This document shows, in pieces, positions 45,005 to 51,601 of a DNA stretch of 64,000 nt. The DNA lies in contig JAHLEZ010000004.1 in assembly GCA_020726505.1 (NCBI GenBank), positions 1,178,001 through 1,242,000 on the forward strand, written 5' to 3'. The position numbers and the translations under genes are program-made. Source of the DNA: Leptodontidium sp. MPI-SDFR-AT-0119. Lineage: Eukaryota > Ascomycota > Leotiomycetes > Helotiales > Leptodontidiaceae. The notes beneath the pieces are model-generated. The model was not told the origin of the DNA. It did not search any database and was given only the letters and a program-made list of their open reading frames with translations. The stretch's first letter is position 1. Every line of letters starts with the position of its first letter.

Positions 45005-46036
45005 ATGGTACAGCTCTTCCCAATGCATATCAGAATGGTAGATGTCTAATCTTTACATCTCCAGGGCTGCTGTGCCTCCACCGTCTCTGCCTCTCCATAC
45101 CCCGCCCAGAACCCCAATAATGGCAATTCCGCCTCGCCCATAAACTCATCGCAGCCAGCCTCGCAGGCTATGATACCCAGGCCATCAACAAATGCCTCGA
45201 ATCGCAGTGGTCCACAGCCGCCATCACAGCAACACCAGAGCCAGAGACACCATCGAGATCTCACCAAGCACCCAACCAAGGACCTCAAACCGCATGTGTG
45301 GAAGAGCCAGACACGGACGTGGACTCGTGCTCAGATAGACGAAGAGCGTATTGCTTTCTTCGATACAAGGACGAGTGGGAGACAGGAAATATGGCAAGCT
45401 ATCAGGACGGCGCTGGAAATTATGTGGGCTGGGGGAGATCCAGAGGAGAATGATGGAGGGTTAGCTACGGCGCAGGTCATCCTGAAAGCGGCTGGTGTGA
45501 CGATACCTAATGGTGACATGACTGCTGCTGTGTATGATGGTTTCGGGGCCCGATACGAGTTACCTGAGCATATCGTTTCCGATCCTACGAATCTCGTCGA
45601 GTTGCCTACCAGATCAGAGGAGGAAGAAGAGGGAGACAAGAGTGAAGATGGCGGCGAGACAGCTGATGAGGATGAGCTTCTGAGGAGGAGGAGGGAGGAT
45701 ATCCGTAGAGGCAAAGCGGTGGCCAATCCTGACGACATGATCGACATCAGAGTCAAGCTTAGTGATCGGGACAATCGACCTCTCGTTATCTCAATCGACA
45801 AGAACGATCTGGTCAGGATAGTGACCAAGAAGATCTACGAGGAGTCAGGAGTAAGCCATTCTCTAATATCTCTCTATCATGATCCTTTTCGATGGAACCC
45901 AACTAATAACCAATAGCTCGAACCACCAAAACACATCCGCATAGCCTACCTAGGCAAGATCCTCAAAGACAACAAAACACTGAAAGAGCAAAACTTTGAC
46001 GAAGAACATGTCCTGAACGGATTAGTCCTGGGATGA
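45005..46036 (+). CDS. UBTD (DC-UbP) family ubiquitin-domain protein
   Basis: Ubiquitin-domain-containing protein of the UBTD1/UBTD2 type, thought to link ubiquitin E2 enzymes and regulators. Exons are 45005-45007 (only the ATG), 45065-45850 and 45917-46036, giving 302 aa. Splicing the first intron (GTACAG, CTAAT branch, CTCCAG) yields MGCCASTVSASPYPAQ, a myristoylation glycine followed by two cysteines for palmitoylation, as in the family. The UBTD domain lies at about residues 80-165 (RAQIDEERIAFFDTRTSGRQ, ALEIMWAGGDPEENDGGLAT, YDGFGARYELPEHIV). The C-terminal ubiquitin-like fold runs from IDIRVKLSDRDNRPLV to LGKILKDNKTLKEQNF. The acidic linker near 175-200 is low complexity. Confidence 0.9.
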
Positions 46037-46700
46037 GCTGCTCTACCTTGCAATGCGGGCTGCTGTATATACATATGCGCACGGACACATACGATAAAGT
46101 AATTTGGGGAATGGCGCTGAGGCATGATGGAACTGACATCATCTTGTTCTGGGCATGCGGAGTGCGGAGCGAGGAGCGAGGAATTTGGGTAATACCCCCG
46201 GCGTTTTGACTCATTGATTGGTTCTTCGCGTGTGAAATGGGATGGATGGTTGGGCAAGGATACCACAAACACATTGCAGTTGATCGGACTAGGTTACGTC
46301 GAGCATTTTAGCGTGCTTTTCATACTTGCTTGCTGAAGGGAGGCGTACATACGTACTTAGTTTCCTTACTTCTTCAATGTTTAATACCGTTACAGTGTCG
46401 AGAGGCATTTCTCTCATTTCTGGTCTTAATGCTTAGATTGGTGTGATGATGTTGCTTGAGGTTCAAGCTGGTGCTGACTTGGATGGGAATTTGCGGCATA
46501 GTTGAGCTGGTATGTTTGGATGAATAGTTTCGGCCTCGCCAGGATCTTAAGATATGCTAAGGCAGAGAGGGGGAATAGGGAGACTTAAGATGACAGAACC
46601 ACAGAGGTAAAGAGTCACTGAAGCTAGGGAAATAGCACGACTAAGGGAATAGAGGTTTGTTCGAAAATCTTCATTGCATTCACATCTAAAGCTAACAAGT
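46037..46700. other. spacer UBTD gene / snoRNA host 3' end
   Basis: Contains the UBTD 3' UTR. The last exon and end of the minus-strand snoRNA host transcript probably extend into its right part. No protein-coding signal. Confidence 0.4.
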
Positions 46701-46742
46701 GTCATTCCTCCCCAAAGTTTGTTCTAAACCCGAAACTGAGAA

Positions 46743-46931
46743 CTGGAAAAAAAAGTTAGCAAAGTTCTGTCAGAGAATGCTGGAGTCAAGAACAGAAGAG
46801 TGAGTAGCTATCTCAGTTCTCCAAAGGTGAAATGTTGGTTCGTCAAGTTTTGATTCGGAAAGAACACAGCGAATATTTGGGTTCATCAGAGATATGGAAG
46901 GGTGTAGTTAACAAGATGGAAAAAGGCTTAC
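46743..46931 (-). other. snoRNA host intron 5
   Basis: Donor GTAAGC after ATG, branch TTGCTAAC followed by a T8 tract and CCAG. Contains the box C/D snoRNA at 46809-46894. Confidence 0.65.
46809..46894 (-). ncRNA. box C/D snoRNA candidate (host intron 5)
   Basis: On the minus strand a terminal stem TATCTC/GAGATA encloses box C (TGATGA, 46888-46883) and box D (CTGA, 46816-46813). Length is 86 nt. The 14 nt before box D (CACCTTTGGAGAA) has about 9 bp of complementarity, one G-U pair included, to a 25S rRNA segment I recall as TCTCCAAGGTGA; this target is weak. An internal TTGACGA could be box C'. Confidence 0.7.
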
Positions 46932-47113
46932 CATAGACGTGCCAGCAGATGTCGTGTGTTGTTGGCTGTACGTACCTAGGCGAAGCCAGTATGTTAGCAA
47001 CGTTTCGATATGGTATTTGATGCTTCATGTGTGATGTGCAAAGAACCAAAGCAAGTTTCAGGCTAGAATGTGTTAGCTGACGGCCCGAGAAACTTGGATG
47101 GAAGAACATACCT

Positions 47114-47196
47114 CATTAAATCAGAATTTTGTAAGTACGTTCATCTGCAAACAGAGTTTGCTCAAACAGTGTGAATAACAGTTTCATCATTTGATG
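47114..47196 (-). ncRNA. box C/D snoRNA candidate (host intron 4)
   Basis: Terminal pairing CATxAAA/TTTAATG encloses box C (ATGATGA, 47190-47184) and box D (CTGA, 47124-47121); 83 nt. An internal D'-like TTGA follows a guide whose + strand sense reads CAGTGTGAATA (47167-47177), matching a 25S rRNA segment I recall as TTTTCAGTGTGAATACAAACC. An internal C'-like AGATGAA is present. It lies in the intron 47063-47241, with the GCTAAC branch about 40 nt downstream. Confidence 0.72.
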
Positions 47197-47310
47197 CGAT
47201 TGGTCTGTGGAATGTAGAGGAAGAGACAAGTGGATAATTACCTAAATAGAAAGTTAGCAATGATGTTCGGGTTCAAGAGGACTCCAATGATCCCAGAATC
47301 ATCGTGCAGT

Positions 47311-47445
47311 AGATCAGGTGACGAATTCTCATCAAGCACTTCCTATACATCTACCCTCACAAGGTTTGTACGCCTTGTTTTTGATGAGAGCAGAGCCGGA
47401 GTGAATTTATGTCCGCCCGTTCGTTCAAAGTTCATCATGGTATAG
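47311..47445 (-). ncRNA. possible divergent C/D element (host intron 3)
   Basis: Host intron 3 holds a box C-like ATGATGA (47438-47432) and a CTGA (47317-47314) about 55 nt upstream of the branch site, but they are 115 nt apart and no terminal stem is evident. A second TTGATGA lies at about 47333. This may be an atypical snoRNA or chance. Confidence 0.3.
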
Positions 47446-47550
47446 AAAGATTGTGGGGTATCAGAGTGTGTAGAGGATGTATGTACCTATTGCGATGCAT
47501 GGTTAGCAAGGTTCATTGAAGAGCTCCATTGAAATCGGCGATAGACATTT

Positions 47551-47649
47551 GAAGGGTCAGACAAGGCTGAAACTTAATTTGACAGTATCTAACATATATA
47601 TCTTCAGAATGAGGAATTCCTATTTTGTCGATTCATCATCACCCCCTTC
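47551..47649 (-). ncRNA. box C/D snoRNA with two 18S rRNA guides (snR41/U32-like)
   Basis: Terminal stem GAAGGG/CCCTTC encloses box C (GATGATGA, 47640-47633), D' (CTGA, 47607-47604) and D (CTGA, 47560-47557); 99 nt. The guide before D is complementary to CAAGGCTGAAACTTAA, 16 nt at 47562-47577 read on the + strand, a universally conserved 18S rRNA segment. The fifth-nucleotide rule points to the first G of AAGGC, the position methylated under yeast snR41 and human U32 guidance. The guide before D' matches GAGGAATTCCTA (47611-47622), also an 18S sequence. The yeast and human equivalence is from memory. Confidence 0.88.
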
Positions 47650-47805
47650 GAGGCGTACGCAAAGAAACAGAGAGGAAAATGCTTTGCTAACCTTTTACTT
47701 TTGTGCTGGGTATCGAGGGTGTCGTTTGCGCTTGGTGTTATTTACTGCAGTCGGGTTAGCTGTGCTCCGACCGCGGAGGTAGACAGTTGAGGCTGATGTG
47801 CTGCG

Positions 47806-47891
47806 CATCCTGACTCAGAATGGTATATAGGACTCCCCATAGTAAAGTAAGAGTTGGATTGTTCAAAATGTATTACTCTCATCATCGGATG
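47806..47891 (-). ncRNA. box C/D snoRNA candidate (host intron 1)
   Basis: Terminal stem CATCC/GGATG (47891-47887 with 47810-47806) encloses box C (GATGATGA, 47886-47879) and box D (CTGA, 47818-47815); 86 nt. The guide upstream of D would target the sense AATGGTATATAGGACTCC, which I cannot place in rRNA, so it may be an orphan or guide an snRNA. It lies about 45 nt upstream of the GCTAAC branch site of its intron. Confidence 0.78.
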
Positions 47892-48313
47892 GATTGACAG
47901 CGGCAGATGAAGAGGGGTTTGGGAATTGGAATTGGAGGCTTACCATTATGCAGGCAGACACCTGCGATGTAGACGGAATAGAAGTGATTATAAAAATGAG
48001 GTAATGGGCGCCGCAAGCAGTTGAAGCTTCGCGAAGACAGTGTTGAAGGTGGTTGTTGAATTACTTGAAGAAGAGGAAAGCTCCAAGAAACGAAAGCTTT
48101 GAAGTCGTTTTTTCTGTGGAAGGACGCTAAGACTAGCTCCTGAGCTTGCCCATATCGGGCCAAGCTTGTCGCCCGTGGCACAGCCACATACCTTTCCAGC
48201 CCCAATTGAAAAGTGGAGACTGTTATTCGCCACTAAGTGAGGAGGAGTAATAACCAACTCCATTCCCGCGGTATCTTGACTTCTGCATTGTAATTTCAAA
48301 GCAGTCTTCAAAT

Positions 48314-50427: not shown

Positions 50428-51601
50428 TTACTCGTCATCACCGAAGAAGACCTTAATAGGCAACCAAGCGTCACCACAGACCTTGAAGCGATCCTTCAAG
50501 CCGTCCAACTGCTTTACCTCATCCGCGGTCAAATCCCAGCCATCAAGCTCAAAGTTCGTCTCGATACGCTCTTTGTTGACGGACTTGGGGATAACGGACC
50601 AGCCCTTCTGCAGACCCCATGCGAGAAGTACTTGTTGAGGAGTCTTACCCTTAGCCTTGGCGAGGCTGAGGAGAGTCTCGTCCTTGTAGAGGGGTGAGTT
50701 GGTGCTACCGAGACAGGAGTATCCGGTGCTGTGGATGCCCTTGGAGGCGTTGTATGCGACGAGCTTTGGTGAGGGGTTGTTGGGGTGGAGTTCGATTTGA
50801 TTAACTGCTGGGACGATCTGGAGGAAGTATCAAGTCAGCTTCATCTCTTCCTTGAAAATACACAAAAACATGGCTTTCTATTTCTGTCAGGGCTATATAC
50901 CTTTGTTGAAGGATCGTTAAGCAGAATCTCCAAGTTCTTAATGCCAAAGTTGGAAACACCAATGTTCTTTACTTTGCCGGTACCGACCAGCTTCTGCATC
51001 TCTTGCCACGTCTTGATGAAGTCCCAGTCTGGGAGGTGCTTCTTCAGATCGGTGGGATCGGTAGAGCAGGGCCAGTGCATGAGATACAAGTCAACGTAAT
51101 CGGTTCCGAGAGACTTCAGGGAAGAGTCAATTCCCTCTTGGACTCGCTTGTGCCATGGGTTGTCCAGCTTGGTGGTCAACCAGATCTGCTCGCGGGGGAC
51201 GCCGGAGTTCTTAATTCCTAATCCGACCTCGGCTTCGTTGCCATAGGCCAACTTGTGCTGATTAGCAACTGCATGAAAATACCAGGGATAGGAGGAAGCT
51301 TACAGCAGTGTCGATGTGACGGTATCCTCTGCGGAGAGCAATCTCAACAGCCTTCTCAACCTCGTGAGGCTGCGATTGCCATGTTCCGAGACCAAGAGCT
51401 GGGATCTTGTCGCCGGTGTTCAAGGTAAAAGTCTTTCTGGAAACAGCAAAGGGTTGTGAGCTGAAGAGTCGAGCTGGGGAGAGCTGTGAGGAAAGGGTTG
51501 CCAGTCTGCGCAGACTTCTGCTTGCCAAACATGAATCCAGGTGCGGGGAGCGGCAGGATGTGGGAGTGTGTTTCTTACGAGGTAACGTTGGCAGAAGCCA
51601 T
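50428..51601 (-). CDS. aldo-keto reductase
   Basis: NADPH-dependent reductase of aldehydes and ketones, 298 aa. Exons 51601-51579 (23 nt), 51436-51304, 51251-50901 and 50817-50428 are in consistent phase; the start is [20 protein letters not shown]. The catalytic tetrad is visible: D50 and Y55 ([13 protein letters not shown]), K80 (IWLTTKLDN) and H111 (YLMHWP). Later AKR blocks are [22 protein letters not shown] and cofactor-binding [11 protein letters not shown]. It resembles glycerol dehydrogenase/Gcy1-type enzymes, but the substrate cannot be read from sequence. Intron 1 (142 nt) contains an open frame, continuous with exon 2, that looks like a mitochondrial presequence. Confidence 0.94.

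Follow-up and report, generated by a model that had tools for sequence, protein, structure and literature searches.

The window analysed here is a 64-kb stretch of DNA on whose minus strand, between positions 47943 and 46743, splice motifs allow five outer introns and one nested intron of 49 nt (intron B) to be read. Box C/D elements are found in all five outer introns, although the snoRNA assigned to snR51 is complete only once intron B has been removed. Along this one strand the order is snR41, snR70 and snR51, of which snR41 and snR51 are recognized through Rfam and guide pairing, and snR70 only through its guide and the placement of C1639 at D'+5. The features are as follows.

47745..47943, minus strand: outer intron 0, GTAAGC...GCTAAC...CAG, 199 nt (splice motifs only)
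47806..47891, minus strand: putative box C/D snoRNA, snoA (box C near 47886, box D CTGA 47818-47815)
47692..47744, minus strand: host exon 2, 53 nt (7-nt uncertainty at the 3' edge)
47487..47691, minus strand: intron I, 205 nt, its AG directly against the intron II donor (splice motifs)
47551..47649, minus strand: snR41 homologue (Rfam and guide pairing)
47242..47486, minus strand: intron II, GTACAT...TTTAG, 245 nt, exon-less on both sides (splice motifs)
47312..47441, minus strand: snR70-type snoRNA (box C 47438, D' CATA, box D CTGA 47317-47314)
46976..47241, minus strand: intron III, GTAATT...CCTAG, 266 nt, holding snR51 and intron B (splice motifs)
47112..47197, minus strand: snR51 5' part, with box C, D' guide TATTCACACTG and D guide CTGATTTAATGAG (boxes and guide pairing)
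47063..47111, minus strand: intron B, GTATGT...GCTAAC...TCTAG, 49 nt, between the snR51 guide element and box D (splice motifs, published precedent)
47045..47062, minus strand: snR51 3' part, box D CTGA 47061-47058 (guide pairing once joined)
46932..46975, minus strand: host exon 3, 44 nt, beginning GTACGT (splice motifs)
46743..46931, minus strand: intron C, GTAAGC...TCCAG, 189 nt (splice motifs)
46810..46893, minus strand: Afu_294 family C/D snoRNA (Rfam 73.2 bits and D' guide)

The outer introns are evenly built, with about 42-57 nt from donor to box C and 54-64 nt from the end of box D to the branch A in each of the five, and GCTAAC is present in all six introns, its branch A lying 11-18 nt before the end of the outer introns and 10 nt before that of the nested one. 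Of the 16 minus-strand GCTAAC motifs in the window, six fall in 46700-47990, for which a Poisson estimate from the other ten gives ~9e-8, a value to be read in the knowledge that motif and stretch were picked post hoc. The five minus-strand introns of shared architecture described in an earlier sequence-only reading can thus be recognized, and its view of them as abutting or near-abutting holds strictly for I/II and II/III, where AG is directly followed by GT (47487/47486 and 47242/47241) and no exon intervenes, while the remaining inner exons measure 53 and 44 nt. For intron I, either GTTAGC at 47691 or GTAAAA at 47698 may serve as the donor. Exon 3 starts with GTACGT right after an AG (46976/46975) and could therefore itself be a donor, giving a third exon-less AG|GT junction in place of a 44-nt exon. 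The same reading had placed a snoRNA in nearly every intron and had listed four; those four introns do carry one, and the count rises to five of five, since the intron 47486-47242 fits snR70. It had further described the exons as short and devoid of a conserved reading frame. The two inner exons are indeed short, and a spliced model (transcript ends assumed at 48150 and 46400) contains no ORF longer than 52 aa, this longest one falling entirely within the last exon. Three minus-strand ORFs that lie within the locus or immediately upstream gave no Pfam family, and the locus gives a single match in the 77-Mb assembly.

Two neighbouring protein-coding stretches were also observed. A gene at 45170-45916 encodes a ubiquitin-binding domain (Pfam PF16455). 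Its product shares 99% identity, at 92% query coverage, with a Leptodophora sp. 'Broadleaf-Isolate-01' protein; Leptodophora belongs to the Helotiales (Leotiomycetes), and the host organism is by this sequence measure close to it. Also on the minus strand, further up the numbering than the host gene, is an aldo/keto reductase stretch (Pfam PF00248) at 50844-51251.

Covariance-model scanning, which had been proposed as a check, gave a mixed outcome. Two of the five snoRNAs exceeded the Rfam gathering score, namely Afu_294 (46810-46893, 73.2 bits) and Afu_455 (47555-47646, 56.2 bits), snR51 remained below it at 47104-47194 (34.7 bits vs a cut-off of 44), and no convincing Rfam family was obtained for snoA or the snR70-type snoRNA. 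The snoRNA matched by Afu_455 also matched snR41, at 34 bits and below cut-off. Terminal stems, earlier ascribed to all of these snoRNAs, stand out on visual inspection in three of the five (snoA, CATCC/GGATG; snR41, GAAGGG/CCCTTC; and the Afu_294 type) and none is apparent in snR51 or snR70. Regarding folding energy, the four snoRNA stretches other than snR51 do not exceed shuffled sequences in stability (z of 0.64, 0.41, -0.82 and -0.35).

Guide capacity was assessed by comparing eight D- or D'-anchored elements (seven guides, plus unspliced snR51 as a comparison) with 300 dinucleotide shuffles of rRNA. The 18S and 5.8S targets were taken from fungal rDNA within a bacterial public record because the organism's own rDNA is apparently, if not surely, missing from the assembly: a 5.8S family search reached only 28.6 bits, below cut-off, the 10-kb stretch around that match held no Rfam match at gathering score, and exact 5.8S and 18S patterns found no match in the assembly. 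Two bacterial public records contain fungal-type rDNA, probably as contamination; each includes 5.8S, and the one used here also has the complete 18S. Searches of viral collections with fungal 5.8S and 25S patterns returned none. For 25S, pairings relied on a provisional yeast sequence and had no shuffle control. Three of the seven guides, those of snR41 (D), spliced snR51 (D) and the Afu_294 type (D'), formed a duplex beyond all 300 shuffles.

In yeast, snR41, snR51 and snR70 are reported to guide modification of 18S at G1126, A100 and C1639, respectively, with snR51 also acting on 25S U2729 and snR41 additionally making Am541. The D guide of the present snR41 forms 17 bp with 1 GU to 18S and places G1126 at D+5 (0/300 shuffles as good), which points to a guide for G1126 methylation; an Am541 pairing is absent among its seven best listed. 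The D' guide of snR70, ACGGGCGG at 47420-47413, pairs over 8 bp and sets 18S C1639 at D'+5, a duplex that 37/300 shuffles equalled and which is not significant alone, and its D region has no convincing 18S or 5.8S target (252/300 shuffles). The assignment to snR70, and with it a predicted role in C1639 methylation, draws on this 8-bp guide, which is weak taken alone, and on position and order. The 3' end of this snoRNA is unsure, as formation of a rival stem, UUCUAUAC/GUAUAGGA, would place it ~30 nt earlier, without CTGA; a perfect 8-nt inverted pair, CTCATCAA/TTGATGAG, lies within the snR70 stretch at 47381-47388 and 47328-47335. As for snoA, no convincing 18S or 5.8S target was found for its D region (34/300 shuffles), and its D' element of 13 nt is presumably complementary over 13 bp to a 25S segment (provisional yeast sequence, no shuffle control), so that this 5' outer snoRNA would probably guide 25S methylation. 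An identification of snoA as snR39b was dropped, its D guide having no convincing 18S or 5.8S match and none among the pairings listed for the provisional 25S segments.

The snR51 homologue is divided. Box C and both guides lie at 47197-47112, and CTGA follows only at 47061-47058, beyond GTATGT...GCTAAC...TCTAG; the stretch 47114-47196, earlier taken for a complete snoRNA, is consequently just its 5' part. Removing the 49 nt of intron B in silico restores box D, brings 18S A100 exactly to D+5 and yields a 14-bp D guide duplex (0/300 shuffles), whereas the unspliced form keeps 13 bp (1/300 shuffles), shifts the +5 position to U101 and has no CTGA. The D' guide TATTCACACTG we take to pair over 11 bp at the 25S U2729 region (provisional yeast sequence, no shuffle control), and snR51 would then direct methylation of both 25S-U2729 and 18S-A100. 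This two-guide pattern has a single match in the assembly. For euascomycetes, Luo et al. 2013 (PMC3596301) report an intron in the same place, separating the snR51 guide from its box D.

At the 3' end of the locus, the Afu_294-type snoRNA carries a D' guide with 15 bp and 2 GU to 5.8S that sets A42 at D'+5 (0/300 shuffles), and its D region has no convincing 18S or 5.8S target (285/300 shuffles). The snoRNA would thus be a candidate guide for 5.8S-A42 methylation, and since the Rfam consensus of Afu_294 contains the same guide core, the assignment may hold in Aspergillus as well. It was not found in a limited literature search, whose scope ended short of the original A. fumigatus ncRNA paper (A. 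fumigatus ncRNAs were reportedly described by Jochl et al. in 2008), and may be new. In Neurospora, A42 methylation of 5.8S has been inferred by primer extension and assigned to CD29, encoded on another chromosome, and that report states that CD29 relatives in other fungi carry a U2 guide only (PMC2780460). A second assembly match to the 5.8S-guide pattern (C45:1874533) combines TGATGA and a 5.8S-type guide with a following CTGA, and its flanks CCAAGAA/TTCCTGG pair at 6/7 positions by eye. It was set aside as a second 5.8S guide because, by estimate, a genome of this size should contain about half such a match by chance; it also has no Rfam match, lies within an opposite-strand ORF and by eye aims at A43, not A42.

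Host genes of this general kind are familiar from other systems. Mammalian hosts of the UHG/gas5 type likewise have non-coding exons and intronic snoRNAs, and retain exons between their introns. The closest counterpart is cluster III of Luo et al. 2013 (PMC3596301), reported with the same core order, the exon-less I-II-III series, intron B in snR51, snoRNA introns at both ends and a non-coding host. Its end introns hold U45 and U55, whereas here one end carries Afu_294 and the other has no family; as Rfam calls neither U45 nor U55 in the present locus, the outer snoRNAs may differ or carry other names. A Leptodophora-like lineage falls outside the species list of that study (PMC3596301). Cluster III of Neurospora crassa (CD9, CD17, CD6) also combines a low-coding host with snR41 and snR51 homologues; the targets given there for CD17 are 18S-Am154 and 26S-Gm2875, which do not occur among the pairings listed here, and the snR51 homologue is exonic with a 26S guide only, in contrast to the intronic form with both guides described above (PMC2780460). 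The yeast snR41-snR70-snR51 cluster reportedly has the same three guides, with sites G1126, C1639, A100 and, on the provisional 25S sequence, U2729, and, unlike the present locus, is intron-less in Saccharomyces (PMC3596301). Recursive splicing with zero-length exons, resembling the exon-less junctions here, has been described for the Candida and Debaryomyces clusters, which also have intronic snoRNAs and non-coding exons (PMC5033589). Stwintrons similarly place one spliceosomal intron within another, although their inner intron usually interrupts a splicing signal belonging to the surrounding intron, whereas here it splits a snoRNA and leaves the outer signals intact (PMC8469720). Further literature drawn on comprised PMC5199042, PMC3938493 and PMC8351944.

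Because of the precedents in Luo et al. 2013, Neurospora and the Candida cluster, the minus-strand interval 47943-46743 is read as orthologous to the host gene of euascomycete snoRNA gene cluster III, with a probability of roughly 0.93. The kind of locus is already published, and the present copy is a local example of an arrangement known across filamentous fungi. The earlier proposal of a non-coding host whose introns are the product is likewise supported, because two Rfam matches, guide pairing to known sites, the lack of a long ORF or a Pfam match, and close precedent all speak in its favour. It could be argued instead that the host encodes a conserved small protein, with the snoRNAs as intron passengers. 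Short minus-strand ORFs do exist, but the 52-aa maximum confined to the last exon, the negative Pfam result and the reports of non-coding cluster III hosts (PMC3596301, PMC2780460) make this extremely improbable. An equally implausible suggestion is that the locus is a degenerate remnant of cluster III: a 1-base insertion in the Afu_294-type D guide relative to the family consensus and, by eye, an extra A in the snR70 guide relative to 18S would agree with decay, yet boxes, branch points and spacing are intact in 5/5 introns and the assembly offers no other copy of the locus.

Within the cluster III ortholog, two structural alternatives were weighed. The snR51 homologue might be unsplit and end at ATGA (~47114), with the downstream GTATGT...TAG either simply belonging to intron III or acting as an alternative unit of splicing. 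ATGA is accepted as a box D variant by Luo et al. (PMC3596301), a 13-bp pairing exists before splicing (1/300 shuffles), and the Neurospora table lists an exonic homologue with the 26S guide only (PMC2780460). However, such a box D would fall within the A100 guide, A100 reaches D+5 solely in the spliced form, and an intron is reported at the very same place (PMC3596301), so that an unsplit snR51 appears very improbable. More weight, albeit still on the unlikely side, can be given to the view that introns I-III constitute one compound intron in which only the intron I donor is used and a choice is made among three acceptors. The AG|GT at both inner junctions permits such splicing, and acceptor choice is named by Luo et al. 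(PMC3596301) as the alternative to stepwise splicing in the cluster III of other fungi. On the other hand, every inner intron retains a donor and a GCTAAC branch, for which a compound intron would seem to have no need, and stepwise removal remains the preferred reading.

Intronic C/D snoRNAs usually arise from a host transcript through ordered splicing, debranching and trimming to the C/D core, followed by guided 2'-O-methylation. For the present species, transcription, splicing, processing and methylation along this route are deduced from the DNA: a single polymerase II transcript would be spliced, with the introns as product and the exons as waste. Since introns I, II and III follow one another without intervening exons, they would most likely be taken out stepwise from 5' to 3', each removal placing the upstream exon beside the next donor. 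The 2'-O-methylation guides would then be released by debranching and by exonucleases that trim the introns back to the C/D core. Intron B would have to leave the interior of intron III before snR51 could gain its box D. A tentative extension, which we consider rather doubtful, is that cluster III has here captured a 5.8S-A42 guide and that both snR51 output and A100 methylation are gated by removal of intron B ahead of intron III.

In conclusion, the sequence allows a confident reading of a host gene that offers little to protein annotation, and the locus adds, from a lineage close to Leptodophora, a case of exon-less intron arrays together with an intron-split snoRNA. If the 5.8S-A42 assignment is right, it would explain how fungi with a CD29 relative that has no 5.8S guide could methylate A42. 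The split snR51 represents a natural test of splicing order; as the amount of snR51 appears to be limiting for 18S-A100 methylation in yeast, ribosome heterogeneity could be determined by intron B splicing. Should the proposed gating be true, splicing order, and not transcription alone, would set the amount of each methylation guide obtained from one transcript.
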